A model generated the notes under the pieces. That model was not told where the DNA came from, did no database searches, and saw only the letters and a program-made list of their open reading frames with translations. Below are positions 2,577 through 53,899 of a stretch of DNA of 64,000 nucleotides, one piece after another; within the stretch, counting starts at the first letter, position 1; the number at the start of each line of letters is the position of its first letter. Source of the stretch: Pseudomonas helmanticensis (GTDB lineage Bacteria > Pseudomonadota > Gammaproteobacteria > Pseudomonadales > Pseudomonadaceae); the NCBI RefSeq assembly GCF_900182985.1, contig NZ_FXUY01000002.1:1351001-1415000 (forward strand), given 5' to 3'. Position numbers and translations under genes: made by a program.

Positions 2577-3572
2577 ATGTCCAAGCAAGTCTCCACGCCC
2601 TTGCGGCGCGTCAGCATCCTGGCGATTGACCGGGTTTTCGCATCTACTCTCATGCAGGCCAAGGATTTTTTCCATCTGGCCAGCCTGCGTTACGGCAAGC
2701 AACTGGGCCACGGCCTGACTCCGGCGTTTGAAACGCGCCTGGTCAGTCCCGACGGCAAACCAGTGAACAGCTTCAGTGACGTGGTCATGCCGGTCGACGG
2801 CGGCCTGGAAAACGCCGACGTCATTATCCTTCCGGCGTTCTGGGACGATTTCGATACGCTTTGCAGCCGTTATCCCCAGGTCTTGCCGTGGTTGCGCGAA
2901 CAGCATGCGCGTGGCGCAGTGTTGTGCGGCGAAGCCACCGGGGTGTTCTGGCTGGCCGAAGCCGGCCTGCTCAACGGCAAGGAAGCGACCACCTACTGGC
3001 GGTTCTTCAATGCGTTCGCCGAGCGTTTTCCGCGGGTGTACCTGAATCAGGACAAACACCTGACCGACGCCGATAACCTCTACTGCGCCGGCGGCACCAC
3101 TTCAGCCTGCGATCTCTATATCTATCTGATCGAACGCTTCTGCGGGGCAAACGTCGCGCAAGCCGTGGCCCGCGACATCCTCTACGAAGTGCAGCGCAGC
3201 TATTCGCCGGGACGCATCGGTTTCGGTGGGCAGAAGCTGCATCAGGATGTGATCATTCTGCAGATCCAGCACTGGCTCGAAGAGCACTTCGCCGACAAGT
3301 TCCGCTTCGAAGACGTCGCCCGCGAGCACGGCATGAGCATCCGCAATTTCATGCGGCGCTTCCAGACGGCCACCGGCGACAAACCGTTGCATTACCTGCA
3401 AAGGCTGCGGATCGAGACCGCGAAAGGCTTGCTGTCCGGCAGCCGCAAGAGCATCAAGACCATCAGTTATGAGGTCGGCTACGACGATGCAAGCTTCTTT
3501 GCGCGGCTATTCCGCCAGCACACCGAGCTGTCGCCGAACCAGTATCGACAGCAGTTCCAACAGGCTGCATAA
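2577..3572 (+). CDS. GlxA-type transcriptional regulator (DJ-1/PfpI + AraC HTH)
   Basis: A 331-residue regulator with an N-terminal DJ-1/PfpI (class I glutamine amidotransferase-like) ligand domain at about residues 12-190 and a C-terminal AraC/XylS double helix-turn-helix at about 228-328 (motif VGYDDASFFARLFRQHTELSPNQYR ends the second HTH; split here as VGYDDASFFARLF and SPNQYR). The elbow reads LCGEATGVFWLAEAGLL, keeping the Cys found in many GATase1-AraC proteins. Family members sense small nitrogenous or metabolic ligands and activate nearby catabolic genes. The divergent acyl-CoA dehydrogenase is the obvious candidate target. The Shine-Dalgarno before ATG 2577 is weak. Confidence 0.9.
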   Translation: MSKQVSTPLRRVSILAIDRVFASTLMQAKDFFHLASLRYGKQLGHGLTPAFETRLVSPDGKPVNSFSDVVMPVDGGLENADVIILPAFWDDFDTLCSRYPQVLPWLREQHARGAVLCGEATGVFWLAEAGLLNGKEATTYWRFFNAFAERFPRVYLNQDKHLTDADNLYCAGGTTSACDLYIYLIERFCGANVAQAVARDILYEVQRSYSPGRIGFGGQKLHQDVIILQIQHWLEEHFADKFRFEDVAREHGMSIRNFMRRFQTATGDKPLHYLQRLRIETAKGLLSGSRKSIKTISYEVGYDDASFFARLFRQHTELSPNQYRQQFQQAA

Positions 3573-3587
3573 CCCTCCCCCCGATGA

Positions 3588-3698
3588 GCGTTCCCACGCT
3601 CTGCGTGGGAACGCTGCCAATGGACGCTCTGCGTCCGCCCCGGAATGTGACGCAGAGCGTCACGGTATGCATTCCCACGCGGAGCGTGGGAACGATCA
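3588..3698. repeat. REP-like element, family B
   Basis: Built from inverted copies of CGTTCCCACGCTCTGCGTGG and GACGCAGAGCGTCAC-type palindromes, ending in GTGGGAACGATCA. The same family occurs at 40.9 kb and, truncated, inside another element at 58.9 kb. Confidence 0.88.
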
Positions 3699-3725
3699 GT
3701 GTGCGCGGGCCGGTGAATTCGAGAT

Positions 3726-3760
3726 AAAAAAAGGGCCTGCAATTGCAGGCCCTGTTTATT
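3726..3760 (-). terminator. Intrinsic terminator of zapE
   Basis: Perfect palindrome GGGCCTGCAATTGCAGGCCC at 3733-3752 followed, on the minus strand, by a run of seven T. It lies 13 bp past the zapE stop codon. Confidence 0.9.
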
Positions 3761-3772
3761 TGGCGAAACTGT

Positions 3773-4867
3773 TTAAGGCTTGTGCGCCCGCGACAGGAAT
3801 TCGTGCGATTGCATCTCCAGCAAGCGGCTCAGCGTGCGCTGGAACTCGAAGTTCAAACGGCCGCCGGTGTACAGATCCTTCAGCTCGACTTCCGCCGAAA
3901 TGATCAGCTTGACGTTACGGTCGTAGAATTCGTCGACCATGTTGATGAAGCGACGGGCGATGTCGTCGGTGGTGACGCTCATCTGCTCGACGCCGCTGAG
4001 CAGCACGGCGTGGAAGATCTTGCCCAGCTCGATGTAATCGTTCTGGCTGCGCGGGCCGTCGCAGAGTTCGCGGAAATCGAACCAGGCCACATCGTCACAA
4101 GTACGCAGGGCACGGATCTCGCGGTTCTCGATCATCAGCACGTCATTCTCGACCGCTGCGGTGCACTCTGGCGTCAGCGCGCGGAAGCTCTTGCGCAGGC
4201 TTTCGTGGGACGCTTCGTCGAGCGGAAAGTGAAACAGCTCCGCTTGTTCGAGGTGACGCAGACGGTAGTCGACGCCGCTGTCAACGTTGACGATCTCGGT
4301 GTTCTGCTTGATCAGCGCAATCGCCGGCAGGAAGCGCGCGCGTTGCAGACCGTCCTTGTACAGACCGTCCGGGACGATGTTCGAGGTCGCGACCAGGGTC
4401 ACGCCATTCTTGAACAATTCTTCCATCAACGTGCCGAGGATCATCGCGTCTGTGATGTCGGAAACGAAGAACTCATCGAAGCAGATTACCCGCGACTCAT
4501 CGGCAAAACGTTTGGCGATGAGGGTCAGCGGGTTTTTCTCGCCACCGAGGGTTTTCATCTCTTCGTGCACACGCTTCATGAAGCGGTGGAAGTGGGTGCG
4601 GGTCTTTTCCTTGAACGGCAGCGCTTCGAAGAAGGTGTCGACCAGGTAAGTTTTTCCGCGACCCACGCCGCCCCAGAAATAAAGGCCCTTGACCGGCGTC
4701 TGATCTTTTTTGCCGAACAGCTTGCTCAGCAGACCCGGTTTGTTCTGATCGGCGGCGATCAGATCCTCGTACAAACGCTGTAGATGACGCACAGCAGTTT
4801 CCTGCGCGGCGTCATGGAAGAAGTCCGGGCGTTTCAGATCAGCTTGGTATCGTTCTAGGGGCGTCAT
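3773..4867 (-). CDS. zapE: Cell division protein ZapE (AFG1-like ATPase)
   Basis: A 364-residue AFG1/ZapE family AAA+ ATPase. Walker A reads GGVGRGKTYL (about residue 67) and Walker B VICFDEFFVSD (about residue 147), both intact. In E. coli ZapE associates with the constriction site late in division and destabilises FtsZ polymers in an ATP-dependent way. It begins with ATG at 4867 and is preceded on the chromosome by trpS on the same strand, but a strong terminator between them makes it a separate transcript. Length is normal for the family. Confidence 0.94.
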   Translation of the reverse strand: MTPLERYQADLKRPDFFHDAAQETAVRHLQRLYEDLIAADQNKPGLLSKLFGKKDQTPVKGLYFWGGVGRGKTYLVDTFFEALPFKEKTRTHFHRFMKRVHEEMKTLGGEKNPLTLIAKRFADESRVICFDEFFVSDITDAMILGTLMEELFKNGVTLVATSNIVPDGLYKDGLQRARFLPAIALIKQNTEIVNVDSGVDYRLRHLEQAELFHFPLDEASHESLRKSFRALTPECTAAVENDVLMIENREIRALRTCDDVAWFDFRELCDGPRSQNDYIELGKIFHAVLLSGVEQMSVTTDDIARRFINMVDEFYDRNVKLIISAEVELKDLYTGGRLNFEFQRTLSRLLEMQSHEFLSRAHKP

Positions 4868-4885
4868 AATTCGTTAGCAAGGCAA

Positions 4886-4918
4886 CAAAAACGGGCCGTC
4901 ACTGTAGCGACGGCCCGT
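4886..4918 (-). terminator. Intrinsic terminator of trpS
   Basis: Ten-bp stem ACGGGCCGTC/GACGGCCCGT at 4891-4918 with an 8-nt loop, followed on the minus strand by TTTTTGTT. It separates trpS from zapE. Confidence 0.88.
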
Positions 4919-4957
4919 GGGAATGGCAATCGGCCCTTGGTCGGACCGTGCCGCCGA

Positions 4958-6313
4958 TTAGTCCTGAACCGGGGTCAGCGCGATGCGCAGCGCCTCGATG
5001 GCCGCGTCCCGCGCAACCGTGTCGGCGAACGCCGGGCTATCGCCAACGCAATCACCTTCCAGCCAGACGCTGAAGCTCAGGTCTTCGCTGCGCACGTCCA
5101 GCGGCTGGCCGGTTTGCAGCTGTTTGGTCACTTGGCCTGCGGTTTTGCCGTCGGCGAAATTGCGCGACAGCAGCAGTTGCTCGCCATCGGCCGCCAGCAG
5201 ACGGAAACGGAAGCTACCGTCGTCTTCGCGGAAGCTGACGAAACGTGCGGCTTTCGCGGCTTTCTTCTTGGTCGTCGTTGCGACTTGTACCTGATTGACG
5301 AAAGAACGCAGGCCAACGGCTTCGCGCAGTTCGTTGAGAAACGGCGTCGCCACGGCACGGGCCTTTTTCGCACCGATCTGCAGGATGTCTTCAAGATCCG
5401 CCGGACGTTCGATCAACTGGTGATACTTGTCGCGCGCCTCGCCGAGATCGTTGTCGAGCAACTGGAACAGACGGTTCTTCGCCTCACCCCAACCCAGACC
5501 ACCGAGCAGTTCGCTGCGGAACTCACCAGCCTGCGCCGGCGTGGCGAACGCCTGGAACAGGGTGAACAAATGCGAGTTGTCCGGATCTTTCGCTTCGCCT
5601 GGCGCTTTCGAATCAGTAACGATCCGCGAAATCGCGTCCTTCATCTCTTTGGCGCTGGAGAACAACGGGATGGTGTTGTCGTAGCTCTTCGACATCTTGC
5701 GACCGTCGAGGCCCGGCAACGTCGCCACGCTTTCTTCAATCAGCGCTTCGGGCATGGTGAAGAATTCTTTGCCCTGACCGAACAAGTGGTTGAAGCGCTG
5801 GCCGATATCACGCGCCATCTCGACATGCTGGATCTGGTCACGACCGACCGGCACCTTGTGCGCGTTGAACATCAGAATGTCCGCGGCCATCAGCACCGGG
5901 TAGCTGTAGAGGCCCATGGTGATGCCGGCGTCCGGGTCTTCACCGGTTTCGACGTTCTTGTCGACCGAGGCCTTATAGGCGTGCGCACGGTTGAGCAGGC
6001 CTTTGGCGGCAACGCAGGTCAGCAGCCAGGTCAGCTCGGGGATTTCCGGGATGTCGGACTGGCGGTAGAAGGTCACGCGGTCGACATCGAGGCCACCGGC
6101 CAGCCAGGTCGCGGCGATTTCCAGACGCGAGCGCTGGATGCGCAGCGGGTCATCGCATTTGATCAGGGCGTGGTAGTCGGCCAGAAAGTAGAACGAATCG
6201 GCATTGCTGTCGCGGCTGGCAAGGATTGCCGGGCGGATCGCGCCGGCGTAGTTGCCCAGGTGCGGCGTGCCGGTGGTGGTGATGCCGGTGAGGATACGGG
6301 TACGGTTCGTCAT
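4958..6313 (-). CDS. trpS: Tryptophan--tRNA ligase
   Basis: A 451-residue class I aminoacyl-tRNA synthetase that charges tRNA-Trp. The HIGH-equivalent is TTGTPHLGNYAGA near residue 13 and the KMSKS loop is GRKMSKSYDN near residue 212. It is the long form found in pseudomonads, with about 110 extra C-terminal residues (Lys/Ala-rich linker TTKKKAAKAA) compared with the 334-residue E. coli enzyme. I chose ATG 6313 (MTNRTRILTG) over an in-frame TTG at 6337. The upstream hydrolase stop lies 24 bp before the start, so the two are probably cotranscribed. Confidence 0.95.
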   Translation of the reverse strand: MTNRTRILTGITTTGTPHLGNYAGAIRPAILASRDSNADSFYFLADYHALIKCDDPLRIQRSRLEIAATWLAGGLDVDRVTFYRQSDIPEIPELTWLLTCVAAKGLLNRAHAYKASVDKNVETGEDPDAGITMGLYSYPVLMAADILMFNAHKVPVGRDQIQHVEMARDIGQRFNHLFGQGKEFFTMPEALIEESVATLPGLDGRKMSKSYDNTIPLFSSAKEMKDAISRIVTDSKAPGEAKDPDNSHLFTLFQAFATPAQAGEFRSELLGGLGWGEAKNRLFQLLDNDLGEARDKYHQLIERPADLEDILQIGAKKARAVATPFLNELREAVGLRSFVNQVQVATTTKKKAAKAARFVSFREDDGSFRFRLLAADGEQLLLSRNFADGKTAGQVTKQLQTGQPLDVRSEDLSFSVWLEGDCVGDSPAFADTVARDAAIEALRIALTPVQD

Positions 6314-41020: not shown

Positions 41021-42046
41021 TTAGAGGGCCAGCGGCGCTCGTTCGCAGAGAGTTGCCAACGCCTTCGCCCATTGCCGGTCGTCATTCAGGCATGGCACCA
41101 GCACCAACTCCTCGCCCCCCGCTTCGCGGAACTGCTCCTTGCCGCGATCGCCAATCTCTTCCAGCGTCTCGATGCAATCGGCGACAAACGCCGGGCACAT
41201 CACCAGCAGCTTCTTCACGCCGCTTTTACCCAGCTCATCCAGCCGCGCTTCGGTGTACGGTTCGATCCATTTCGCCCGGCCCAACCGCGACTGAAACGAT
41301 ACCGACCACTTGCCGTCCGGCAGGCCCATGCGCTCAGCGAACAGCGCTGCAGTTCGCAGGCATTGTGCGCGATAACAGGTGGCCATTACCGCCGGTGAAG
41401 CGTTCTTGCAGCAGTCGTCATTCTTGAAACAATGATTACCCGTCGGGTCGAGCTTGGTCAGGTGCCGTTCCGGCAACCCGTGGAAACTCAACAGCAAGTG
41501 ATCGTAATCCTGCTGCAAGTGCGGTCTGGCGCTTGCAACCAGCGCGTCGAGATACTCCGGCTGATCGTAGAACGGTTGCAGCACCGACAGCTGCACATTG
41601 AGCTTCTTCTCGCGGATCACTCGCTTGGCTTCTTCGATCACCGTGGTCGTGGTGCTGTCGGCGAACTGTGGATACAGCGGCGCCAGCGTGATGCGCTTGT
41701 GTCCCGCGGCCACCAGCTTGAGCAAACAGGTTTCAATCGACGGCTCGCCGTAACGCATGGCCAGTTCCACCGGGCCCTGAGTCCACTGCGCGTGCATCTG
41801 CTGTTGCAGGCGACGGCTGAGCACCACCAGTGGCGAGCCCTCCTCCCACCAGATCGACGCGTAGGCGTGGGCCGACTGTTCCGGACGCTTGATCAGGATC
41901 AGCGATACCAGCAGACGCCGCACCGGCCATGGCAGGTCGATCACGTACGGGTCCATCAGAAATTGATTGAGGTAGCTGCGCACATCGGCCACAGAGGTTG
42001 AGGCCGGGGAACCCAGGTTGACCAGAAGCAAGGCGTGATCGGTCAT
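41021..42046 (-). CDS. hemH: Ferrochelatase, with cysteine-rich insert
   Basis: A 341-residue ferrochelatase inserting Fe2+ into protoporphyrin IX, the last step of haem synthesis. Catalytic His189 lies in [10 protein letters not shown]. Between it and the [11 protein letters not shown] segment is a cysteine-rich stretch (Cys206, 212, 213, 224, 229), typical of the pseudomonad branch and suitable for an iron-sulfur or other metal site. ATG 42046 ([10 protein letters not shown]) follows AGGACGTTGC. The TIGR01777 gene ends 13 bp upstream on the same strand, so they form an operon. Confidence 0.94.
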
Positions 42047-42059
42047 GCAACGTCCTATT

Positions 42060-42962
42060 TCAGAGGCGGCTGGAGAGATCATCCAGGGCCGCGCGTAAAT
42101 CCGTGAACTGGAAAGTGAAACCCGCTTCCAGCAAGCGTTCCGGCAAAGCCTTCTGGCCGCCGAGCAACAACAAAGACATCTCGCCGAGGCCGACCTTCAG
42201 GGCCAGGGTCGGCATCGGCATGAACGCCGGGCGGTGCAGCACGCTGCCCAGCGTCTTGGCAAATTCGCGATTGCGCACAGGTTTTGGCGCGCACGCATTA
42301 TAAGGACCACTGGCCTGATCGCGGTGCAGAAGAAAATCAATCAGGGCGATTTGATCGTTGATATGAATCCACGGCATCCACTGCCGACCATTGCCCAAAG
42401 GCCCGCCGAGCCCGAGCTTGAACGGCAGCAGTAACCGCGACAAAAAGCCGCCCTCGGCCGACAGCACCAGCCCGGTGCGCACCAGCACCACACGGATGCC
42501 CTGCGCTTCGGCGCGCAGCGCGGTTTCTTCCCAGGCGATGCACAACTGACTGGCGAAGTCGTCGATCACCGGCGGCGAGTCTTCCGTCAGTTCGCGCTCG
42601 CCACCATCGCCGTACCAGCCGATCGCCGATCCGGAAATCAGCAACGCCGGTTTTTGCGCGCGGGTTTCCAGCCACGCCAGCAAGGTTTCCGTGAGCTTGA
42701 TCCGACTGCTCCACAGCAACGCTTTGCGTCGATGGGTCCACGGCCGGTCGGCAATCGGTGCGCCAGCAAGATTGATGATCGCGTCCACGGGTTCCTCGCC
42801 GAGGTCTTCGAGATGCGCAATGCCACGCACTTGCGCACCGCAGATTTTCGCGACTTTTTCCGCTTTGCGACTCCACACGGTCAGGCGGTGCCCCTGCCCT
42901 GACCAGTGCCGGCAAAGCTGACGTCCGATCAAACCAGTACCGCCGGTCAGCAATATGTGCAT
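42060..42962 (-). CDS. TIGR01777 family NAD-dependent epimerase-like protein
   Basis: A 300-residue extended SDR protein of the YfcH/SULA type. The nucleotide motif is [13 protein letters not shown] at the N terminus, with [17 protein letters not shown] and a C-terminal DUF1731 segment ([18 protein letters not shown]). Substrate unknown. ATG 42962 follows CGAGGAAGATGT. It is divergent from the renalase-like gene of the light-type regulon and could share its promoter region, though no TGTACA pair directly overlaps its own start. Confidence 0.88.
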
Positions 42963-43063: not shown

Positions 43064-44356
<1,293 letters not shown>

Positions 44357-44361
<5 letters not shown>

Positions 44362-44440
44362 GAGCTGCCGAAGGCTGCGATCTTTTGATCCTGTTTTTAA
44401 AAACAACATCAAAAGATCGCAGCCTTCGGCAGCCCCCTAC
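44357..44440. repeat. REP pair, family A variant, overlapping a stop codon
   Basis: Left arm TGTAGGAGCTGCCGAAGGCT starts within the last codons of the TIGR02450 gene; inverse arm ends at 44440, eight bases before the first TGTACA half-site of operon 2. The inner arms GATCTTTTGAT/ATCAAAAGATC pair too, so it may act as the terminator of operon 1. Confidence 0.88.
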
Positions 44441-44447
44441 AGAAACT

Positions 44448-44521
44448 TGTACAAACAATTTGACTTGTACACCTTTGAATCTATGCTAACCCAATATTGT
44501 ACAGAGATTGCTCTCTGTACA
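44448..44521 (+). promoter_or_regulatory. Tandem LitR-type operators, operon 2
   Basis: Two pairs with identical geometry: TGTACA (44448-44453)-N12-TGTACA (44466-44471) and TGTACA (44498-44503)-N12-TGTACA (44516-44521). The first pair brackets the -35 box, the second lies just past the predicted transcription start. Two-site repression or cooperative binding by the MerR-type product of the same operon is the simplest reading. Confidence 0.8.
44460..44487 (+). promoter_or_regulatory. Sigma70 promoter of the light-type operon
   Basis: TTGACT (44460-44465), 16-bp spacer, TATGCT (44482-44487). The -35 lies between the two half-sites of operator 1; the predicted start near 44494 is immediately before operator 2. 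Confidence 0.7.
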
Positions 44522-44541
44522 GGTTTAGATTCGAGGTGCTT

Positions 44542-45504
44542 ATGTCCGTCCTTTCCCCGGCCAAACCGAAAATCGCCATCAGCGCCTGCCTGCTGGGTGC
44601 CGAGGTGCGCTTCAACGGTGGGCACAAGGAATCGCGCCTGTGCAGCCGCACCCTTACTGAATATTTCGATTTCACTCCGGTCTGCCCGGAGGTCGCCATC
44701 GGCCTGGGTATTCCCCGCGAGCCGATCCGCCTCGTCGGTGATCCAGATCATCCTGAAGCCATCGGCACGGTGAATCCGGCGATCAACGTCACCCGGCCAC
44801 TGGCCGAGTACGGCGAGAAAATGGCCGCCGAACTCGATGACATCTGCGGCTACATCTTCATGCAGCAATCGCCGTCCTGCGGTCTGGAACGGGTCAAGGT
44901 CTATCACGCCAACGGCGCTCCGGTGAATGGCGGCGGACGCGGCATCTACGCCGAAGCCTTCTGTGCGCAACACCCGGACCTGCCGGTGGAAGAAGCCGGG
45001 CGTCTCAACGATCCGGTACTGCGCGAAAACTTCATCACCCGCGTGTTCGCCTACAGCGCCTGGCAGCAAGTGCTCGGCGAAGGCCTGAGCCGTCGCGCGC
45101 TGACCGAATTCCACTCGCGCTACAAATACCTGCTGATGGCCCACAACCCGCTGCAATACAAAGCACTGGGCAAACTGCTGGGCAATATGGCGCACACCGA
45201 TCCCGCCGAACTCGGCCCGCGCTACTTCAGCGAACTGATGGCGGCGCTGAAAAAATGCGCCACGCGCGGCACGCACTGCAACGTGTTGCTGCACATCAGC
45301 GGATATCTGAAACAGGTCATCAGCGCCGCAGACAAACAGGAAATGGTTCACGTCATCGACCAGTACCGTCAGGGCATCGTGCCGCTGGTGGTGCCGTTGA
45401 CGCTGCTCAAGCATCACTTTCGCCAACATCCCGATCCGTATATCGCGCAACAGGTTTACCTGCAACCGCACCCGGAAAACCTCAGCCTGCGAAACGCCAT
45501 CTGA
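44542..45504 (+). CDS. DUF523 and DUF1722 domain protein
   Basis: A 320-residue fusion of DUF523 (residues about 8-150; ISACLLGAEVRFNGGHK and SPSCGLERVKVY, with conserved Cys) and DUF1722 (about 190-310; YKYLLMAHN, then QYRQGIVPLVVPLTLLKHH). The DUF523 half has a Cys pattern suggesting metal or cluster binding; no reaction is known. ATG 44542 follows CGAGGTGCT. First gene of the operon; its stop overlaps the MerR start (TGATG). Common companion of photolyase and LitR genes. Confidence 0.9.
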   Translation: MSVLSPAKPKIAISACLLGAEVRFNGGHKESRLCSRTLTEYFDFTPVCPEVAIGLGIPREPIRLVGDPDHPEAIGTVNPAINVTRPLAEYGEKMAAELDDICGYIFMQQSPSCGLERVKVYHANGAPVNGGGRGIYAEAFCAQHPDLPVEEAGRLNDPVLRENFITRVFAYSAWQQVLGEGLSRRALTEFHSRYKYLLMAHNPLQYKALGKLLGNMAHTDPAELGPRYFSELMAALKKCATRGTHCNVLLHISGYLKQVISAADKQEMVHVIDQYRQGIVPLVVPLTLLKHHFRQHPDPYIAQQVYLQPHPENLSLRNAI

Positions 45505-46445
45505 TGAACGACAAACCCGACTCCAGCGCCCAGGAAGACCTCGGCGCCGACTTCAAGAAAGCCCTCGACGAAGGCTGGCTGCCGATCCGCGAAGTCGCGC
45601 GGCAGACCGGCGTCAACGCGATCACATTGCGTGCGTGGGAGCGCCGTTACGGGCTGATCGTGCCGCAACGCACGCCCAAGGGCCATCGACTCTACAGCGC
45701 CGAACATGTGCAACGGGTTCTGGCGATCCTGACCTGGCTCAACCGTGGCGTCGCGGTCAGTCAGGTCAAGCCGCTGCTCGACACCCCGCATGCTTTCAGC
45801 GAATCGGTGGAAAACGATTGGCAACGCCTGCGCCAGACCTTGCTGGCCGCCGTTACCCAACTCAATGAACGTGCGCTCGACGACAGCGTCAATCAGGCCA
45901 TGGCGCTCTACCCGCCGCGCACCCTGTGTGAACAATTGCTGATGCCGCTGCTGGCTGATCTCGAACAGCGCTGGCAGGGCCAGTTCGGTGCGCAGATGGA
46001 ACGCACGTTCTTTTTTTCCTGGTTACGCAGCAAATTCGGCGCCCGCATCTACCATAACAATCGTCAGTTACACACCGCGCCCTTGCTGTTGATCAATCAA
46101 TCCGACCTGCCACTGGAACCTCATCTGTGGCTGTGCGCGTGGCTGATCAGCAGCGCCGATTGCCCGGTGCAAGTGTTTGACTGGCCTATACCGGCCGGTG
46201 AATTGGCGCTGACCGTCGAACACCTGCAAGCCCGTGGCGTACTGCTGTATTCCAGCAAAGCCATGAACCTTGCGCACTTGCCCAAGCTACTGAACGGAGT
46301 CAGTTGCACAAAAATGCTGGTCGGACCAACGGTATGCATCCACCACGCCGAGTTGTCCGTAAGAACTTCCGAGATCGCTGATTTGTACCTGGCTGAAGAT
46401 CCGCTTTCGGCGCACCAGGCACTCGTTCAGCGTGGGCTGATTTAA
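45504..46445 (+). CDS. MerR-family regulator, LitR/CarH-like without cobalamin ligands
   Basis: A 313-residue regulator with a MerR winged HTH at about residues 25-92 (LPIREVARQTGVNAITLRAW) and a C-terminal region equivalent to the cobalamin-binding half of LitR/CarH. The key cobalamin features are absent: the Trp...Glu-His lid motif reads W157...E166-R167, one residue shorter and with Arg for His, and no DxHxxG is present. This matches class II LitR, reported in P. putida to work with short LOV photoreceptors instead of B12. No LOV gene is in the window. The TGTACA pairs upstream are likely its own sites (autoregulation). Coupled to both neighbours by 1-bp overlaps. Confidence 0.85.
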   Translation: MNDKPDSSAQEDLGADFKKALDEGWLPIREVARQTGVNAITLRAWERRYGLIVPQRTPKGHRLYSAEHVQRVLAILTWLNRGVAVSQVKPLLDTPHAFSESVENDWQRLRQTLLAAVTQLNERALDDSVNQAMALYPPRTLCEQLLMPLLADLEQRWQGQFGAQMERTFFFSWLRSKFGARIYHNNRQLHTAPLLLINQSDLPLEPHLWLCAWLISSADCPVQVFDWPIPAGELALTVEHLQARGVLLYSSKAMNLAHLPKLLNGVSCTKMLVGPTVCIHHAELSVRTSEIADLYLAEDPLSAHQALVQRGLI

Positions 46446-47908
46446 TGAACTCAGTGAATTCCGACATGCAATTGATCTGGCTGCGCAGCGACTTGCGCCA
46501 ACACGACAACACCGCCCTTTCGGCTGCCGCAGCGCGCGGCCCGACGGTGGCCGTGTACCTGTTGAGTCCACAGCAATGGCTGGAACACGACGATGCGCCG
46601 TGCAAGGTCGACTTCTGGCTGCGCAATCTCAAGGAGCTGAGCAAAAGCCTCGGCGAGCTGAACATTCCCTTGTTGATTCGCACCGCAGCGCATTGGGATC
46701 AGGCTCAGGCCGAACTGCTCAAGCTGTGCCAGCAACTGAAGATTGAAGCGCTGCACGTCAATGAAGAATATGGCGTTCACGAGAGCCGTCGCGATGCCGC
46801 CGTGGCCGAAACCTTGAAAGCCGAGGGCATCGAGTTTCACAGCTACCTCGATCAGTTGCTGTTCAAGCCCGGCACCGTGCTGACCAAGACCGACACCTAC
46901 TTCAAGGTCTTCAGCCAGTTCAGAAAGGTCTGTTACGAGCGTCTGCATCGCTCGATGCCGGCGCGGGTCAAGGCACCCGGCAAGCAGGCGAAACTCAAGA
47001 TCGACAGCGACCCGATTGCTGATTCGGTAGAAGGCTTCACTACCCCGAGCGAATCCCTGCAAGCCCTTTGGCCAGCGGGTGAAAAAGAAGCCCAGCGACG
47101 CCTCGACACCTTCGCTGACGCGCAAATCGACTACTACAAAAGCGAACGCGACTTCCCGGCCAAACCCGGTACCAGCCAGCTTTCAGCGTATCTGGCCGCC
47201 GGCGTGATCTCGCCGCGCCAATGTCTGCACGCCGCGTTGCAAAGCAATCAGGGCGAATTCGAGAGCGGCAAGGTCGGCGCCGTTACCTGGATCAACGAAC
47301 TGCTCTGGCGCGAGTTCTACAAGCACATTCTGGTCGGCTACCCGCGCGTCTCCCGCCACCGCGCCTTCCGCCCGGAAACCGAAGCGCTGGCGTGGCGTGA
47401 TGCGCCGGACGAACTCGCTGCGTGGCAAGAGGCGCGCACCGGTCTGCCGATCATTGACGCTGCAATGCGCCAACTGCTCGAAACCGGCTGGATGCACAAC
47501 CGCCTGCGCATGGTCGTGGCGATGTTCCTGACCAAGAACCTGCTGATCGACTGGCGCGAAGGCGAACGCTTTTTCATGCGCCACTTGATCGATGGCGACC
47601 TGGCGGCGAACAACGGTGGCTGGCAATGGAGTTCATCGACCGGCACTGATTCGGCGCCGTATTTCCGCATCTTCAATCCGTTGAGCCAGTCGGAAAAATT
47701 CGACAGCGAAGGCCTGTTCATCAAGCACTGGCTGCCGCAACTCGCAGGTCTAAACAAGAAAGAAGTACATAACCCGGCCAGCGCCGGTCTGTTCGGTGCC
47801 GCCGACTACCCGGCGCCGATCGTCAATCTGAGCGCTTCACGGGAACGGGCGCTGACCGCGTTCAAGAACCTGCCCTCGCGTCAGGCTGGCGGAGACGATC
47901 ATGAGTGA
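46445..47908 (+). CDS. phrB: Deoxyribodipyrimidine photo-lyase (CPD photolyase)
   Basis: A 487-residue class I photolyase repairing cyclobutane dimers with blue light, using FAD and an antenna chromophore. N-terminal antenna domain begins MQLIWLRSDLRQHDN; the FAD domain has GTSQLSAYLAAGVISPRQC and WINELLWREFYKHIL, then the strongly conserved RMVVAMFLTKNLLIDW and DGDLAANNGGWQWSSSTGTD (about residues 355-400). ATG 46445 overlaps the regulator stop by one base. Placement in the operon links repair to light sensing. Confidence 0.96.
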   Translation: MNSVNSDMQLIWLRSDLRQHDNTALSAAAARGPTVAVYLLSPQQWLEHDDAPCKVDFWLRNLKELSKSLGELNIPLLIRTAAHWDQAQAELLKLCQQLKIEALHVNEEYGVHESRRDAAVAETLKAEGIEFHSYLDQLLFKPGTVLTKTDTYFKVFSQFRKVCYERLHRSMPARVKAPGKQAKLKIDSDPIADSVEGFTTPSESLQALWPAGEKEAQRRLDTFADAQIDYYKSERDFPAKPGTSQLSAYLAAGVISPRQCLHAALQSNQGEFESGKVGAVTWINELLWREFYKHILVGYPRVSRHRAFRPETEALAWRDAPDELAAWQEARTGLPIIDAAMRQLLETGWMHNRLRMVVAMFLTKNLLIDWREGERFFMRHLIDGDLAANNGGWQWSSSTGTDSAPYFRIFNPLSQSEKFDSEGLFIKHWLPQLAGLNKKEVHNPASAGLFGAADYPAPIVNLSASRERALTAFKNLPSRQAGGDDHE

Positions 47909-48323
47909 ATTCCTGCAGCGCTTCGCCCGGCAATTTTCAGCGTTGAACAAAGACAACCTGCAACGCCTGGGCGAGCTCTACAGCGATGACATTCATTTCA
48001 CCGACCCGCTGCACGAAGTTCAGGGCCTGGCGCAATTGCGCGATTACTTCAGCGAGCTGTACGCCAACGTCAGCGAACTGCATTTCGACTTTCACGGTTT
48101 CGACCAGATCAGCGAGGGCGAAGGCTACTTGCGCTGGGTCATGCGTTATCGCCACCCGCGCCTGGCCAATGGCCGGGAGATCAGAGTCAGCGGCTGCTCG
48201 CACCTGCTGTGGCGCGACAAGGTTTATCGCCATCGGGATTATTTCGATGCCGGGGCACTGCTTTATGAACATTTACCCGTATTGGGCCGGGTGATCGCTT
48301 GGCTGAAAAGGAGAATGGGATGA
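47901..48323 (+). CDS. SnoaL-like / NTF2-fold protein
   Basis: A 140-residue single-domain protein of the SnoaL-like polyketide-cyclase superfamily (NTF2 fold). FLQRFARQFSALNKDNLQRLGELYSDD starts the fold and IHFTDPLHEVQG gives the usual Asp near the cavity mouth. The substrate is unknown; in this operon it could act on an oxidised lipid or be structural. It overlaps phrB by 8 bp and the SDR gene by 4 bp. Confidence 0.86.
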   Translation: MSEFLQRFARQFSALNKDNLQRLGELYSDDIHFTDPLHEVQGLAQLRDYFSELYANVSELHFDFHGFDQISEGEGYLRWVMRYRHPRLANGREIRVSGCSHLLWRDKVYRHRDYFDAGALLYEHLPVLGRVIAWLKRRMG

Positions 48324-49102
48324 GTCGTACAACTCCACGGCGTTATTGGTTGACCGGAGCCAGCAGTGGCATCGGCGCGGCGCTGGCTGAAGAGATATTG
48401 AAAACCGGTGCGCACCTGGCAGTCAGTTCACGCCAGATCGCACCGCTCAAAGTGTTGGCGCAACGCTATCCGGGACAGGTATTGGTGGTCCCGGGGGATT
48501 TGACCAACAGCCAGACCGTGCGCGAAATCGGCCAGCAGATCGCGGAGGACTGGGGTTCGCTCGACAGCGTCATCCTCAACGCCGGAACCTGCGAATACGT
48601 CGATGCCAAGCAGTTCGATGCCTCGATCATCGAACACGTGGTGCGCACCAATCTGCTCGCCAGCAGTTATTGCATCGAGGCCGCCCTGCCGCTGCTACGC
48701 CAAGGCACGGCGCCGCATCTGGTCGGCGTGGCCAGTTCGGTGACCTATCTGCCGCTGCCTCGGGCCGAAGCCTACGGGGCATCGAAGGCCGGGTTGCGTT
48801 ACCTGTTCGAATCGCTGCGCATCGATCTTGCCGACGAAGGTATTGAAGTCACCGTGGTCAGCCCGGGATTTGTCGAGACGCCGCTGACCGCCAAAAACGA
48901 TTTCCCGATGCCGCTCAGTTGGCCTGTGGATAAAGCCGCACGGCACATCTTTGCCAAGCTCAAGGATCGGCCACTGGAGATCGCTTTTCCGGCCCTGTTC
49001 ATGGCGGCGCTCTGGCCGTTGTCGAAACTGCCCGCGCGCGTGCAACTGGCCATCGGCAAACGCATGGTGCGCAAACCACCACCACAAACGGATCTGGCAT
49101 GA
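48320..49102 (+). CDS. Short-chain dehydrogenase/reductase
   Basis: A 260-residue classical SDR. The cofactor motif is TGASSGIGAAL near residue 12, NAG appears in VILNAGTCEY, and the catalytic Tyr/Lys is YGASK (about residue 154). Substrate unknown; context suggests an acyl or lipid aldehyde/ketone. ATG 48320 (after AAAAGGAGAATGGG) was preferred over a TTG at 48299. ATGA overlaps connect it to both neighbours. Confidence 0.9.
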   Translation: MSRTTPRRYWLTGASSGIGAALAEEILKTGAHLAVSSRQIAPLKVLAQRYPGQVLVVPGDLTNSQTVREIGQQIAEDWGSLDSVILNAGTCEYVDAKQFDASIIEHVVRTNLLASSYCIEAALPLLRQGTAPHLVGVASSVTYLPLPRAEAYGASKAGLRYLFESLRIDLADEGIEVTVVSPGFVETPLTAKNDFPMPLSWPVDKAARHIFAKLKDRPLEIAFPALFMAALWPLSKLPARVQLAIGKRMVRKPPPQTDLA

Positions 49103-50346
49103 AGATCGCCATCGTCGGGAGCGGGATCGCCGGGTTGACCTGCGCCTACCTGCTCAATCGCCGACACGAGATCACGGTGTTCGAGGCCAGCGACTGGGTC
49201 GGTGGCCACACGCATACCGTGGAGGTCACCGTCGAGGGCCGGCAGTACGCCGTGGACACCGGTTTCATCGTGTTCAACGACTGGACCTACCCGAACTTCA
49301 TTCGCTTGCTGGGCCAACTGGGCGTGACGTTCAAACCGACCGAAATGAGCTTCTCGGTGACCGATCCGGACACCGGCCTGGAATACAACGGCAACAACCT
49401 CAACAGCCTGTTTGCCCAGCGCAGCAATCTGTTGTCGCCAGGGTTTTGGGGCATGTTGCGTGACATTCTGCGCTTCAACAAAGAAGCCCAGCGCGACCTT
49501 CTCGAATTGCGTATCGCCGCCGACATGACGCTCGATGATTACCTCAAGGCTGGCGGTTATGGCGAGCGTTTCATCCTGCATTACATCGTGCCGATGGGCG
49601 CGGCGATCTGGTCGATGCCGATGGCCGAAATGCTTGATTTCCCGCTGCAGTTCTTCGTGCGTTTCTTCAAGAACCACGGGCTGCTGTCGGTCAGTGATCG
49701 TCCGCAATGGCAAGTTATCGAGGGCGGCTCCAGCGCCTACATCGCGCCATTGACTGCTTCGTTCAAAGACAGGATTCGCCTCAACTGCCCGGTCAACCGG
49801 GTCGATCGCGACGTGCACGGCGTGGTTATCCACAGCCCGGCGGGCATCGAACATTTTGACCAGGTGGTATTTGCCTGCCACAGCGATCAGGCCCTGCAAT
49901 TGCTCGCCAGCCCGAGCGATGCCGAACGCGAAATCCTCGGTGCCCTGCCCTACGCCGACAACGAAGTGGTGCTGCACACCGACACGCGCCTGTTGCCCAC
50001 ACGGAAACTGGCGTGGGCGAGCTGGAATTATCGCCTCGGCGGATCCGGCCATACCCAAGCCGCGGTCACCTACGACATGAACATTCTGCAAGGCATCCAG
50101 AGCGACACCACGTTCTGCGTCAGCCTCAACCAGAGCGCCGGCATCAGCCCGTTCAAAGTGCTGGCCAAGTACACCTATGCGCACCCGCAATACAGCCTCG
50201 CGGCGGTCGCGGCACAAAATCGCTGGGGCGAACTCGATGGCGCACACCACACGCATTATTGCGGCGCCTATTGGGCCAACGGTTTTCATGAAGACGGCGT
50301 GGTCAGCGGTTTACGCGTGGCCGCAGCCTTCGGGGAAACCTTATGA
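49099..50346 (+). CDS. FAD-dependent amine oxidase-like protein (lipid desaturase/oxidase candidate)
   Basis: A 415-residue flavoprotein with the FAD-binding start MKIAIVGSGIAGLTCAYLLN and GGHTHTV, of the amine-oxidase superfamily branch found beside Cfa-like genes and DUF1365. Rhodobacter relatives in the singlet-oxygen (ChrR/RpoE) regulon take part in furan fatty-acid synthesis, so desaturation of a methylated acyl chain is plausible but unproven. GTG/ATG-type 4-bp overlaps tie it to the SDR and DUF1365 genes. Confidence 0.88.
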   Translation: MKIAIVGSGIAGLTCAYLLNRRHEITVFEASDWVGGHTHTVEVTVEGRQYAVDTGFIVFNDWTYPNFIRLLGQLGVTFKPTEMSFSVTDPDTGLEYNGNNLNSLFAQRSNLLSPGFWGMLRDILRFNKEAQRDLLELRIAADMTLDDYLKAGGYGERFILHYIVPMGAAIWSMPMAEMLDFPLQFFVRFFKNHGLLSVSDRPQWQVIEGGSSAYIAPLTASFKDRIRLNCPVNRVDRDVHGVVIHSPAGIEHFDQVVFACHSDQALQLLASPSDAEREILGALPYADNEVVLHTDTRLLPTRKLAWASWNYRLGGSGHTQAAVTYDMNILQGIQSDTTFCVSLNQSAGISPFKVLAKYTYAHPQYSLAAVAAQNRWGELDGAHHTHYCGAYWANGFHEDGVVSGLRVAAAFGETL

Positions 50347-51158
50347 ACAGCGCCCTGTACAGCGGCTGGATCGGCCATCGGCGTTTCTCGCCGCGTCGGC
50401 ATGAGTTCCGCTATCGGATCGGCCTGCTCTATCTCGACCTGAGCGAGCAGGATGCGGTGCTGGCGCTGTCACCGCTGGCGGGGCGCAGCCGCTTTGCGCC
50501 GTTCTCGTTTCGCGAGACAGATTACCTGAAGACCTTTACCGGTCGCGGCGTGCGCCTGATCGATGCCGTGCGCCAGCAGGTTGGCGCAGCCATCGGTCAT
50601 GCGCCGCAAGGCACGGTCTGCCTGCTGACCCAGGCGCGCAGTTGGGGCTTGTCGTTCAATCCGGTGAGTTTCTTTTATTGCCACGAGGCCGACGGTCAAC
50701 TGGCAGCGATTGTCTGCGAAGTCACCAACACGCCGTGGCGCGAGCGCTATCACTACGTGTTGCCGGCACGCGCACCGATCAATCCGGGCAATGTTCATCA
50801 GCACTTTGCCGTGGCAAAGGCGTTTCACGTTTCACCGTTCTTGCCGCGCGATCTCGAATACCGCATGAGCTTCAGCCCTGCCGCGCAAACCCTCGGCGTG
50901 CACATGGCTGACTGGCAGGGCGAACACAAACTGTTCGACGCCACCCTCAACCTGCAACGCGAAACGCTCGATCGCCCAAGCTTGCACCGTTACTTGCGGC
51001 GTTTCCCGTGGATGACCGCGAAAACCGCTCTGGCGATTTACTGGCAAGCCCTGCGCCTGTTGCTCAAGCGCGCGCCGATCTTTGCTCATCAGGCTGCCGA
51101 CGGCAGCTTTCAAACCGCCACTGTGCCTCCCAAGGAGCACCGCCATGAAATCCTCTAG
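50343..51158 (+). CDS. DUF1365 domain protein
   Basis: A 271-residue soluble or peripheral protein with the DUF1365 signature: GWIGHRRFSPRRHEFRYRIG at the start, LLTQARSWGLSFNPVSFFYC in the middle and an aromatic C-terminal half (FPWMTAKTALAIYWQALRLL). The family is nearly always adjacent to a Cfa-like methyltransferase and an amine-oxidase-like flavoprotein, as here; its reaction is unknown. The downstream cfa start lies 14 bp inside its 3' end. Confidence 0.9.
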   Translation: MNSALYSGWIGHRRFSPRRHEFRYRIGLLYLDLSEQDAVLALSPLAGRSRFAPFSFRETDYLKTFTGRGVRLIDAVRQQVGAAIGHAPQGTVCLLTQARSWGLSFNPVSFFYCHEADGQLAAIVCEVTNTPWRERYHYVLPARAPINPGNVHQHFAVAKAFHVSPFLPRDLEYRMSFSPAAQTLGVHMADWQGEHKLFDATLNLQRETLDRPSLHRYLRRFPWMTAKTALAIYWQALRLLLKRAPIFAHQAADGSFQTATVPPKEHRHEIL

Positions 51159-52410
51159 CCTGTCGGTCAGTCGGCTCAGCACTAACGGTTTGACCGGTTC
51201 GCTGCTGCGCCGGGGCGTCTTGCGCCAACTCGGTCAGCTCAAACACGGGCAATTGATGGTGTTCGAAGACGGCGAACAAATGCTCTTCGGTACGCCCGGC
51301 AGTGCGCTGCTGGGGGAAATTCACATCACCGACCCGGCCGTTTGGGGGATGGTTGCCAGCAGTGGCTCGATTGGCGCCGGCGAAGCGTTTATTCATGGCT
51401 ACTGGAGTTCACCGGATCTGACGGCGGTGGTGCGCGTGTTTGTCAGCAACCTGGAAGTACTCGATGCCATGGAGGGCGGCCTCGCCCGCCTCGGGAGGCC
51501 ATTGGTGCAAGGCCTGCACTGGCTCAATCGCAATACGCGCAAGGGCTCGCAGAAAAACATCGCCGCGCATTACGACCTCGGTAACGATCTGTTCGAGCAG
51601 TTTCTCGACCCGACCATGATGTATTCGGCGGCACAGTTCCTCACGCCCGAAGACAGCCTCGAGCAGGCGCAGTTGAACAAACTCGAACGCATCTGCCAGA
51701 AACTCGCGCTCAAGCCCAGCGATCACTTGCTGGAAATCGGTACCGGTTGGGGCAGCATGGCGCTCTATGCCGCGCAGAATTACGGTTGCCGCGTGACCAC
51801 TACCACGCTGTCGAAAGAGCAGTTCGCCTTTACCGCGCAACGCATCGAACAGCTTGGCTTGCAGCAGCAGGTGACGCTGCTGTTGGAGGATTACCGCGAC
51901 CTCAGCGGCGAATACGACAAACTGGTCTCGATCGAGATGATCGAAGCGGTCGGCCACCGCTTCCTGCCGACCTACTTCAAACAGTGCGCGCACCTGCTCA
52001 AGAGCAACGGACTGATGCTGATCCAGGCCATCACCATCCGCGAGCAACGTTACGAACAGGCCAAGCGCGGCGTCGATTTCATCCAGCGCTACATCTTCCC
52101 CGGCGGCGCCCTGCCGTGTGTGCAAAAGATGCTCGAGATCGTCAGTCGCGACACCGACATGAACCTGCTGCACATGGAGGATTTCGGCCTGCATTACGCG
52201 AAGACCCTGCGCCTGTGGCACGAGAACTTTCGCCATGCCCACGGTCGCTTGAGCGAACTCGGCTACGACGATTACTTCCTGCGCCTGTGGGAGTTTTACC
52301 TGTGCTACTGCGAGGGTGGCTTCCTTGAGCGCACCATCGGCACCGCGCAACTGTTGCTGGCCAAACCCGAGGCAATGCCGGCGCCATTGCTTGGCCGCTT
52401 CGATGCTTGA
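51145..52410 (+). CDS. Cyclopropane-fatty-acyl-phospholipid synthase-like methyltransferase
   Basis: A 421-residue SAM-dependent lipid methyltransferase. The SAM motif LLEIGTGWGS is at residues 195-204; YCEGGF near the C terminus corresponds to the catalytic region of CfaS. It adds a methylene or methyl group across cis double bonds of membrane acyl chains. Context with DUF1365 and the flavoprotein fits the UfaM-like (furan fatty acid) branch as well as a true Cfa; sequence alone does not decide. ATG 51145 follows AAGGAGCACCGCC. Confidence 0.92.
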   Translation: MKSSSLSVSRLSTNGLTGSLLRRGVLRQLGQLKHGQLMVFEDGEQMLFGTPGSALLGEIHITDPAVWGMVASSGSIGAGEAFIHGYWSSPDLTAVVRVFVSNLEVLDAMEGGLARLGRPLVQGLHWLNRNTRKGSQKNIAAHYDLGNDLFEQFLDPTMMYSAAQFLTPEDSLEQAQLNKLERICQKLALKPSDHLLEIGTGWGSMALYAAQNYGCRVTTTTLSKEQFAFTAQRIEQLGLQQQVTLLLEDYRDLSGEYDKLVSIEMIEAVGHRFLPTYFKQCAHLLKSNGLMLIQAITIREQRYEQAKRGVDFIQRYIFPGGALPCVQKMLEIVSRDTDMNLLHMEDFGLHYAKTLRLWHENFRHAHGRLSELGYDDYFLRLWEFYLCYCEGGFLERTIGTAQLLLAKPEAMPAPLLGRFDA

Positions 52411-52894
52411 GCGTTGCGCCAATGCGGCATTGTTCCAGATTGGCTGGCTGGCCTGCGTGCTTGGCGGCAACAGCATGTGGTTACTGCTGGCGCTGGCGGT
52501 GCTGGTGATTCATCTGTGCTGGATCAGCAGTTGGGCGGCGGAAGGTCGGCTGATTCTCAGCGTGGTAGTTGTCGGCACGGCGCTCGACAGTATTTTGCGC
52601 GGTCTGGGTGTGTTCAGGTTCGACGACCTGTCGCCGCTGATTCCACTGTGGTTGATGCTGCTCTGGGCGTTGCTGGCGACCACGCTACGCCATTGTCTGC
52701 AATGGAGCGCCCGGCCGTGGTGGCTGGCCAGCGCGCTCGGTGCGCTCGGCGGTGCGTTGTCGTATTACGCTGGCGGGCGACTGGCCGGCGTGCAATTCCC
52801 CTATGGTGAACTGCCGACGCTGATCGCGATCGGGCTGATCTGGGCGCTGGTGTTTCCGCTGCTGCACACGATGGCGCGACGCCTGAGTCAGTGA
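52403..52894 (+). CDS. DUF2878 membrane protein
   Basis: A 163-residue inner-membrane protein with about five hydrophobic segments and the DUF2878 pattern (FQIGWLACVLGG, DSILRGLGVFRF, GALGGALSYYAGGRLAGVQF). Function unknown. It starts inside the last codons of the cfa-like gene (8-bp overlap) and is the last fully overlapping gene of the operon. Families of this type follow Cfa-like genes in many Gammaproteobacteria. Confidence 0.87.
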   Translation: MLERCANAALFQIGWLACVLGGNSMWLLLALAVLVIHLCWISSWAAEGRLILSVVVVGTALDSILRGLGVFRFDDLSPLIPLWLMLLWALLATTLRHCLQWSARPWWLASALGALGGALSYYAGGRLAGVQFPYGELPTLIAIGLIWALVFPLLHTMARRLSQ

Positions 52895-52946
52895 GCGTCT
52901 GTCAGGCCTTTCACACAGGGCCCGGCCACTGCCTTACACTGCCGCC

Positions 52947-53252
52947 ATGAAAACCATTCCCCATCATCAAATCGCTGAACCGGCGGTCACTTGCTCGACG
53001 TGCGCCGCCTGCTGCTGTCAGCTCGAAGTGATGCTGATCACCGACACCGGCGTGCCTGATCGCTTTATCGATACCGATGAGTGGGGCGGTGAAGTGATGC
53101 TGCGTCTGGACGACGGCTGGTGTGCAGCGCTGGATCGCGACACGATGATGTGCACGATCTATGAGAAACGTCCGCTGATCTGCCGCGAGTTCGAAATGGG
53201 CGCGCCGGAATGCATCGAAGAACGCCAGGGCATTACGACCGCTTACCGCTGA
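52947..53252 (+). CDS. YkgJ-family cysteine cluster protein
   Basis: A 101-residue protein with an N-terminal Cys cluster CSTCAACCC (about residues 16-24), then CAALD, CTIYEKRPLICREFEMG and CIEE. The pattern fits the YkgJ (Fe/S- or zinc-binding CxxxC) family. Function unknown. It starts 53 bp after the DUF2878 gene and has no separate strong promoter visible, so it may be the distal gene of the light-type operon. Confidence 0.88.
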   Translation: MKTIPHHQIAEPAVTCSTCAACCCQLEVMLITDTGVPDRFIDTDEWGGEVMLRLDDGWCAALDRDTMMCTIYEKRPLICREFEMGAPECIEERQGITTAYR

Positions 53253-53275
53253 CCTCAAGAACACCCCAAAACAAA

Positions 53276-53364
53276 TGTAGGAGTGAGCCTGCTCGCGATA
53301 GCGGTGAGTCAGTCAATATATGTGTGACTGACACACCGCTATCGCGAGCAGGCTCACTCCTACA
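53276..53364. repeat. REP pair, family C (inverted)
   Basis: TGTAGGAGTGAGCCTGCTCG and its inverted copy, with extended pairing through GATAGCGGTG.../CACCGCTATC and an inner GTCAGTCA/TGACTGAC stem; a nearly continuous long hairpin between convergent genes. Confidence 0.9.
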
Positions 53365-53380
53365 GGGTTATGCGTACGAC

Positions 53381-53899
53381 TTACAACGGCATCGTGTAGT
53401 GCAGCGCGTAACTTTCTACGCCGTCGTTATCACTGGCCAGGCCGGCGTTGGAATAGTGCGTTGCCCGGATCCCGACTTCATGCCCGCCATTGAAGCGCAG
53501 ACCAAAACCGAGACGGTCTTCGAACTGGAAAGAACCGCCAATGTTGTTGCTTTCATACTTGGTGTTGGAGAACGCAGCCACACCAATGCCCGCTTCGATA
53601 TACGGCTTGACCGATTGACCGGCAAACTCGTAAACGAATACCGGCGAGAACGACAGGCTGTTGTTGCTGGAGGTCTTGTCACCTTCCCAGTAGGTGTAAG
53701 CACCGCTCCAGTAACCGGTCAGGCGACCAACGTCGCTCTGCAGCCAGCTTTTGTCCCAGTCGAAATTCATCCCCAGGCGGTAGGTCATGGTCGAATCGCT
53801 GGTGGCCCCCACCGCAAATTCAACACCTGCGGCTTGTGCAGTAAAACTTTGCCCCATCAGTGCGGCCGCAATCGCGGCCAAGCAGAATAGTCGCTTCAC
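53381..53899 (-). CDS. pagL: Lipid A 3-O-deacylase PagL
   Basis: A 172-residue outer-membrane beta-barrel enzyme that removes the 3-O-acyl chain of lipid A and tempers endotoxin signalling. Signal peptide ends near residue 22-23 (FTAQA). The catalytic triad is intact: His148, Ser150 and Glu162 (THYSNAGL, GVESY) correspond to His126/Ser128/Glu140 of mature P. aeruginosa PagL, with the same spacing. It lies beside murI, as in P. aeruginosa (from memory). A 112-bp AT-rich leader separates it from murI, so it has its own promoter. Confidence 0.93.
   Translation of the reverse strand: MKRLFCLAAIAAALMGQSFTAQAAGVEFAVGATSDSTMTYRLGMNFDWDKSWLQSDVGRLTGYWSGAYTYWEGDKTSSNNSLSFSPVFVYEFAGQSVKPYIEAGIGVAAFSNTKYESNNIGGSFQFEDRLGFGLRFNGGHEVGIRATHYSNAGLASDNDGVESYALHYTMPL

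Follow-up and report, generated by a model that had tools for sequence, protein, structure and literature searches.

We analysed a 64,000-nucleotide stretch of DNA from Pseudomonas helmanticensis (contig NZ_FXUY01000002.1, positions 1,351,001 to 1,415,000; the whole stretch is called the window here), in which nine open reading frames (ORFs), each with an ATG start, follow one another on the + strand between 44542 and 52894. An earlier interpretation of the letters alone (the sequence-only reading) had described a nine-gene, fully overlapping operon, and on recomputation we obtained identical successive overlaps of 1, 1, 8, 4, 4, 4, 14 and 8 bp. The GC content at the third codon position is high in all nine genes (0.71-0.79). 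Pfam agrees with the gene family named earlier for each gene, the domains in order being 2-thiour_desulf with DUF1722, MerR with B12-binding_2, DNA photolyase, SnoaL, SDR, amine oxidase, DUF1365, CMAS and DUF2878. All 8 junctions within the operon overlap as against 2 of 24 same-strand neighbour pairs elsewhere in the 64-kb window, a comparison that serves as a guide only because the window genes were called roughly and the operon itself was recovered in part. The operon is real, well built and conserved, and its outline had been read correctly.

Gene 1 (44542-45504) has, by Pfam, a 2-thiouracil desulfurase domain fused to DUF1722. A TudS-DUF1722 fusion has been shown to remove 4-thiouridine from tRNA (PMC11417400), and the authors of that paper, from which the enzyme class is taken, mention a light-controlled operon with PhrB, LitR and RudS. 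Judged by its domain fusion, gene 1 is RudS, a tRNA 4-thiouridine desulfidase or eraser; its former description as a DUF523-DUF1722 gene holds at the level of the family, the tRNA-eraser identity having been missed. It is followed by a class II LitR repressor of the PplR1/PmlR1 type (45504-46445), assigned from Pfam and comparison of orthologues and paired with PmlR1 by its operon position, and by phrB (46445-47908), a deoxyribodipyrimidine photolyase by Pfam and by a match to NCBIfam NF007955 above the cut-off. The remaining six genes form a lipid module, opened by a SnoaL-like protein (47901-48323; Pfam and comparison of module loci). Next are an SDR oxidoreductase (48320-49102), the counterpart of RSP1087, a UfaD-like flavoprotein (49099-50346), putatively a desaturase of methylated acyl chains, and a UfaO-like DUF1365 protein (50343-51158), putatively the furan-forming oxygenase, all three assigned from Pfam, comparison of loci and published pairing; the UfaO-like model has a predicted local distance difference test (pLDDT) score of 93.7. 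A UfaM-like S-adenosylmethionine methyltransferase of the Cfa superfamily follows (51145-52410; Pfam, solved relatives and published pairing), and the final gene encodes a small DUF2878 protein (52403-52894; Pfam) that is predicted to be all-helical (pLDDT 94) and is probably a membrane protein. As a side observation on rudS, the match is partial in genomes G027, G037 and G080 and in two pieces in G126, and G014 has no RudS match though its litR-phrB operon stands.

On scanning 44100-53400 we found one sigma-70-like promoter, TTGACT-N16-TATGCT at 44460-44487 (+ strand) at the operon head; since shuffled sequences average 2.3, this single promoter can only be called consistent with one transcription unit. 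The predicted transcription start, placed by analogy with P. mendocina, lies at about 44494, seven bases past the -10 box and 48 bp before the ATG. The same scan gave 14 terminator-like patterns (shuffles mean 8.8), several of them intragenic and one coinciding with the second operator described below, so these patterns are not evidence of function. Two LitR operators of the published consensus T(G/A)TACA-N12-TGTA(C/T)A are present at the head promoter, both as TGTACA-N12-TGTACA on the + strand, exact to the consensus and kept in relatives: site 1 at 44448-44471 overlaps the -35 box, its first base being where the region delimited by the sequence-only reading begins, and site 2 is at 44498-44521. 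Shuffles of the window gave on average 0.08 operator matches at up to one mismatch. Across the 6.5-Mb genome there are four exact operators: two at the operon head, a third ahead of a cryB-type gene and a fourth within a porin-like ORF; a reversed control pattern had no match. For comparison within the genus we used 41 loci, i.e. the window and 40 of 149 Pseudomonas loci, hand-picked for diversity; in all 39 with rudS at this place (window included; the other two lack it there) a LitR site lies upstream of rudS at up to one mismatch, and 28 of them have two sites. The cryB-type gene with the exact operator (locus L011, 5240-6784, - strand) is followed by a PAS sensor kinase-like gene (2638-5109, - strand). 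A 26-base inverted repeat (44364-44389 and 44408-44433), presumably resembling a Pseudomonas REP element or a terminator, stands just before the operon head, and a similar one is near 53276-53365.

In the operon regulator Pfam finds, besides MerR, only B12-binding_2 and no cobalamin-binding domain. The motif ExHxxG, which we take to be the signature of CarH, is not conserved among 37 LitR orthologues from the 40 picked loci; nine of the 37 have the H, and the window protein keeps E and H, not G. A B12-dependent LitR was rejected on these two grounds, and the B12-less LitR type proposed earlier is borne out. The class II LitR published in PMC9758184 fits such a regulator. Elsewhere in the genome a second LitR, 36% identical, adjoins a gene for a 152-residue short LOV protein carrying DCRFLQ. 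The best solved relatives of this protein include sensory box proteins, among them 3sw1 (E 5e-50), presumably PpSB1-LOV. The light sensor is probably this separately encoded short LOV protein and not LitR itself; thus the former light-regulator interpretation was right as to the LitR type, and the probable sensor had escaped it. In P. mendocina the illuminated LOV protein inhibits binding of PmlR2 to DNA (PMC9758184), and by analogy we infer the same anti-repression in the present strain.

Taking these results together, we are highly confident that the locus is the LitR1/phrB light-response operon of Pseudomonas, working by a repression, LOV-release and damage-repair scheme. The gene content, overlaps, operators, sensor gene and sites elsewhere in the genome on which this scheme draws were observed here; light induction, LOV anti-repression (for PmlR2) and the chemistry of RudS and of the Ufa enzymes have been demonstrated in relatives, and from these we infer repression, induction and lipid production in the present strain. 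In the dark, the operon-encoded LitR and the second LitR would sit on the two operators and block the promoter. Blue light would convert the short LOV photoreceptor to a form that pulls LitR off the DNA, and the nine genes would then be made as one message. RudS would remove photosensitive 4-thiouridine from tRNA, PhrB would repair pyrimidine dimers, and UfaM, UfaD and UfaO would convert cis-vaccenoyl phospholipid chains to a furan fatty acid, a scavenger of singlet oxygen. The SnoaL, SDR and DUF2878 genes accompany the lipid genes; Rhodobacter can make furan fatty acids without the SDR counterpart. That the unit is likely light-driven had been rightly judged, as a likelihood.

Some observations weigh against this assignment. 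One of the four exact operators sits within a porin-like ORF (locus L005), and for that reason it was rejected as a regulon target. An SDR gene beside the second LitR, which we take to be folM, has no operator within two mismatches and was rejected likewise. As regards the literature, LOV anti-repression was demonstrated for PmlR2 and not for PmlR1, and the RudS paper (PMC11417400) terms these regulators adenosyl-B12-dependent, contrary to PMC9758184 and to the present sequence. Furan fatty acid production in Pseudomonas was not reported in the literature passages searched; it is published for two alphaproteobacteria and, by a cited title, for a Shewanella.

The assignment of the lipid genes draws on work in which UfaM was the methyltransferase acting on cis-vaccenate, UfaD the desaturase, and UfaO, a member of DUF1365, was needed for oxygen from O2 to be added (PMC7380195). 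Putative counterparts of all three are encoded together here as judged by family, gene order and published pairings, so the UfaM/UfaO/UfaD-like content had been read correctly. At the P. syringae phrB locus, RSP_1091, 1090, 2144 and 1087 were paired with amine oxidase, hypothetical, cfa and SDR genes at 35-39% identity (PMC5507510). We also used 40 DUF1365 loci hand-picked across the phylum, mostly one per genus, among the matches listed of 195 genomes with DUF1365 (396 searched); ufaO is present in all by construction, ufaD in 40 and ufaM in 35. The alternative that the Cfa-like enzyme is an ordinary cyclopropane fatty acid (CFA) synthase, making cyclopropane and not furan fatty acids, is suggested by its best solved relatives, which are CFA synthases, and by its best NCBIfam model, also CFA synthase, yet the latter score is below the cut-off (282.5 of 400 bits). 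Against it, the ufaD-ufaO-ufaM order is that in which the proven genes of R. palustris are numbered, RPA2571 (ufaD), RPA2570 (ufaO) and RPA2569 (ufaM) in PMC7380195, ufaD adjoins the DUF1365 gene in all 40 phylum loci (picked by DUF1365), and another Cfa-like gene, 38% identical, is present in the genome. We regard a cyclopropane product as unlikely. Genes 6-8 are instead likely UfaD-, UfaO- and UfaM-like, with furan rather than cyclopropane fatty acid as the likely product, so that of the "cyclopropane or furan" lipid proposed earlier the furan part is favoured and the cyclopropane part is less likely. In Rhodobacter, single deletions of RSP1087, 1088 or 1089 left the fatty acid profile unchanged (PMC7380195); since RSP1087 is the SDR counterpart, SDR is probably not needed for furan synthesis. 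In the Rhodobacteraceae Roseovarius sp. 217 and Yoonia vestfoldensis we found ufaD and ufaO, then an unlabelled gene (413-428 residues), DUF3833 and SDR (the Y. vestfoldensis ufaO was placed by a separate sequence match), and no DUF3833 gene was called at the corresponding position of the Gemmobacter tilapiae ufa locus. Taken with published gene lengths, this order fits RSP1091-1087.

Within Pseudomonas, UfaO was found in 108 of 149 genomes, with 109 places entered (three fragment rows, two of G058 and one of G103, being left out of the distance count), 85 of them within 9 kb of rudS and 24 not. In 12 of these 24 the distance to a short LOV gene is about 3 kb, LOV rows having been entered only for genomes with ufaO away from rudS. 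Fourteen of the 24 places were fetched: one is a phrB operon without rudS, and the other 13 are away from phrB and carry snoaL-sdr-ufaD-ufaO-ufaM-DUF2878 together (L273 without a ufaM match and with ufaD split over two matches). In all 13 the start of an exact LitR operator lies no more than about 260 bp ahead of the snoaL match. Genomes G001, G105, G122 and G143 gave no UfaO match yet keep SDR in the phrB operon, and G001 and G143 keep DUF2878 as well. L273, the second lipid module of one genome, looks degraded, with ufaD split, ufaO short and no ufaM match. A cryB-type gene is convergent beside the lipid module in L268, L274 and L275, with a further operator beyond in all three.

A module found elsewhere with its own operator and missing at the phrB locus of many relatives raises the question of several units, in which an internal promoter would split rudS-litR-phrB from a six-gene lipid module only recently joined to it. 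In the window, however, phrB and snoaL overlap by 8 bp, with neither an operator (at up to one mismatch) nor a promoter-like site between them, and we hold such a split to be rather unlikely. A second alternative concerns the signal: the operon might be driven by singlet oxygen through an extracytoplasmic function (ECF) sigma factor and ChrR as in Rhodobacter, LitR playing a lesser, modifying part. In its favour, of the 40 phylum loci 24 hold an ECF and/or ChrR-like gene (8 a LitR-like gene, 8 neither and none both), and the region upstream of phrB in P. syringae DC3000 is bound by an ECF sigma factor of the RpoE-ChrR type (PMC5507510). Here the head promoter bears a sigma-70 sequence and LitR operators, and the genome has three matches to PF12973 (ChrR cupin), whose own 3-kb loci hold no ECF-like gene, no direct genome-wide search for ECF sigma factors being made; a ChrR/ECF system near a PF12973 gene was accordingly rejected. 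The singlet-oxygen alternative is in our view very improbable. The claim that the regulator class differs from that of Rhodobacter is thus supported for the strain; for the genus it is not absolute, given the P. syringae case. In the Vibrio cholerae blue-light response both ChrR and a MerR regulator act (PMC5241685), and with the P. syringae binding this indicates that both controls can coexist in one genome.

The 24/8/8 split is not a population estimate, the loci being hand-picked from listed matches. Also, the ECF and ChrR queries were taken from the same loci (Pfam confirmed three, two ECF and one ChrR), one of the eight LitR-like matches is weak (28%, L154), and only ChrR was found in L143 and L151 and only ECF in L145 and L150. 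L166 and L177, of other families, read ECF-ChrR-rudS-phrB-snoaL-sdr-ufaD-ufaO-ufaM (Pfam confirms the sigma factor in both and ChrR in L166), and L160 and L175 read rudS-litR-phrB-snoaL-sdr-ufaD-ufaO-ufaM-DUF2878. The same damage genes therefore stand beside two unrelated regulator kinds, and an exchange of sensors becomes a testable idea. Allowing one mismatch, the Pseudomonas operator occurs in only two of the eight LitR-like loci (L175 and L176) and, as an exact match, in the ChrR-bearing L151; the operators thus give no evidence of LitR control outside the family.

Upstream of the operon a flavin adenine dinucleotide (FAD) flavoprotein gene (43160-44146, + strand; Pfam) is preceded by a LitR-type site, TATACC-N12-TGTACA with one mismatch (43089-43112, + strand), and followed by a small Trp-rich DUF2389 protein gene (44143-44361, + strand; Pfam), probably co-transcribed with it. 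A relative of this flavoprotein is present in all 149 Pseudomonas genomes searched. A LitR-type site at up to one mismatch lies between the TIGR01777 and flavoprotein genes in 39 of the 41 loci, 69-82 bp before the start in 36 and farther off in L077, L093 and L097; L074 has a two-mismatch site only, and L076 has no LitR-type site in this interval. The narrower form TATACH-N11-TTGTAYA occurs once in the genome, upstream of the flavoprotein. Because of this conservation and uniqueness the flavoprotein is likely a member of the LitR regulon, which we did not find stated in the literature passages searched. The sequence-only reading had overlooked the site. Divergent from it on the - strand (41021-42962), with this LitR-type intergenic region in common, are genes that we take to be hemH (ferrochelatase) and a TIGR01777-type gene; through this site light might also control the synthesis of haem.

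With gene 1 as RudS and genes 6-8 as UfaD, UfaO and UfaM, a single light signal should act for tRNA, DNA and the membrane alike. Pieces published apart (tRNA eraser, photolyase and furan-lipid pathway) are thereby joined in one testable light-damage programme of a common genus, with a sharp regulon prediction (nine-gene operon, flanking flavoprotein and cryB). More tentatively, the six genes may be a portable membrane-protection cassette that keeps its LitR operator at varied Pseudomonas sites, the damage operon being conserved across Proteobacteria with an exchangeable light or singlet-oxygen sensor; SDR and DUF2878 might then act on oxidised lipid products and not in furan synthesis, and the site between the flavoprotein and TIGR01777-hemH could tie porphyrin removal to light. 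We offer these ideas as a possibility that we do not favour.

Several known systems resemble the present one. The RudS tRNA desulfidases of PMC11417400 have the same TudS-DUF1722 fusion beside LitR and PhrB, and no difference was seen. The RpoE-ChrR singlet-oxygen core regulon of R. sphaeroides (PMC7380195, PMC5507510) includes the same lipid enzymes, SDR and photolyase, with control by an alternative sigma and anti-sigma factor, genes at separate loci and no RudS mentioned in the literature passages searched. Among the 19 light-inducible genes of P. putida given in the introduction of PMC9758184 are pplR1, phrB, ufaM, folE and cryB, and the PplR1-3/PpSB-LOV light regulon of KT2440 (Sumi et al. 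2020, as described in citing papers) likewise unites phrB, ufaM, cryB and the regulator gene; in a co-culture study PP_0738-PP_0742 increased in concert (PMC11014904). In 12 Pseudomonas genomes ufaO has a short LOV gene about 3 kb away and is not part of the phrB operon, unlike here. KT2440 is presumably of this kind. The closest system is the pmlR1 operon of P. mendocina NBRC 14162 (PME6650-PME6610), nine genes with start codons overlapping or near the preceding stop and likely a polycistron (PMC9758184). On illumination pmlR1 is induced 6- to 10-fold, phrB 27- to 33-fold and ufaM 25- to 33-fold, PmlR2 was footprinted at the head promoter, and transcription starts 48 bp before the ATG (same paper). 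The gene number is the same and five named genes match (pmlR1, phrB, SDR, FAD oxidoreductase and ufaM); four are hypothetical there, and their identity with rudS, snoaL, DUF1365 and DUF2878 would follow from position and number. The 16-bp-spaced sigma-70 promoter, the two TGTACA-N12-TGTACA operators and the second LitR with a short LOV elsewhere are likewise shared. The -10 box is TATGCT here and TATGAT in P. mendocina, and the putative folM here has no clear operator, unlike P. mendocina folM, for which a one-mismatch site is reported; therefore the regulon differs in part. The LitR and Rhodobacter parallels drawn by the sequence-only reading hold, and the published P. mendocina light operon was overlooked by it, so that its interpretation as a whole is partly supported. 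The operon is not new, the matching blue-light-induced operon of P. mendocina with the P. putida KT2440 precedent largely anticipating it as a discovery; what the present comparison adds to these systems is modest, namely the site at the flavoprotein, the lipid module with its operator and the exchange of regulators.

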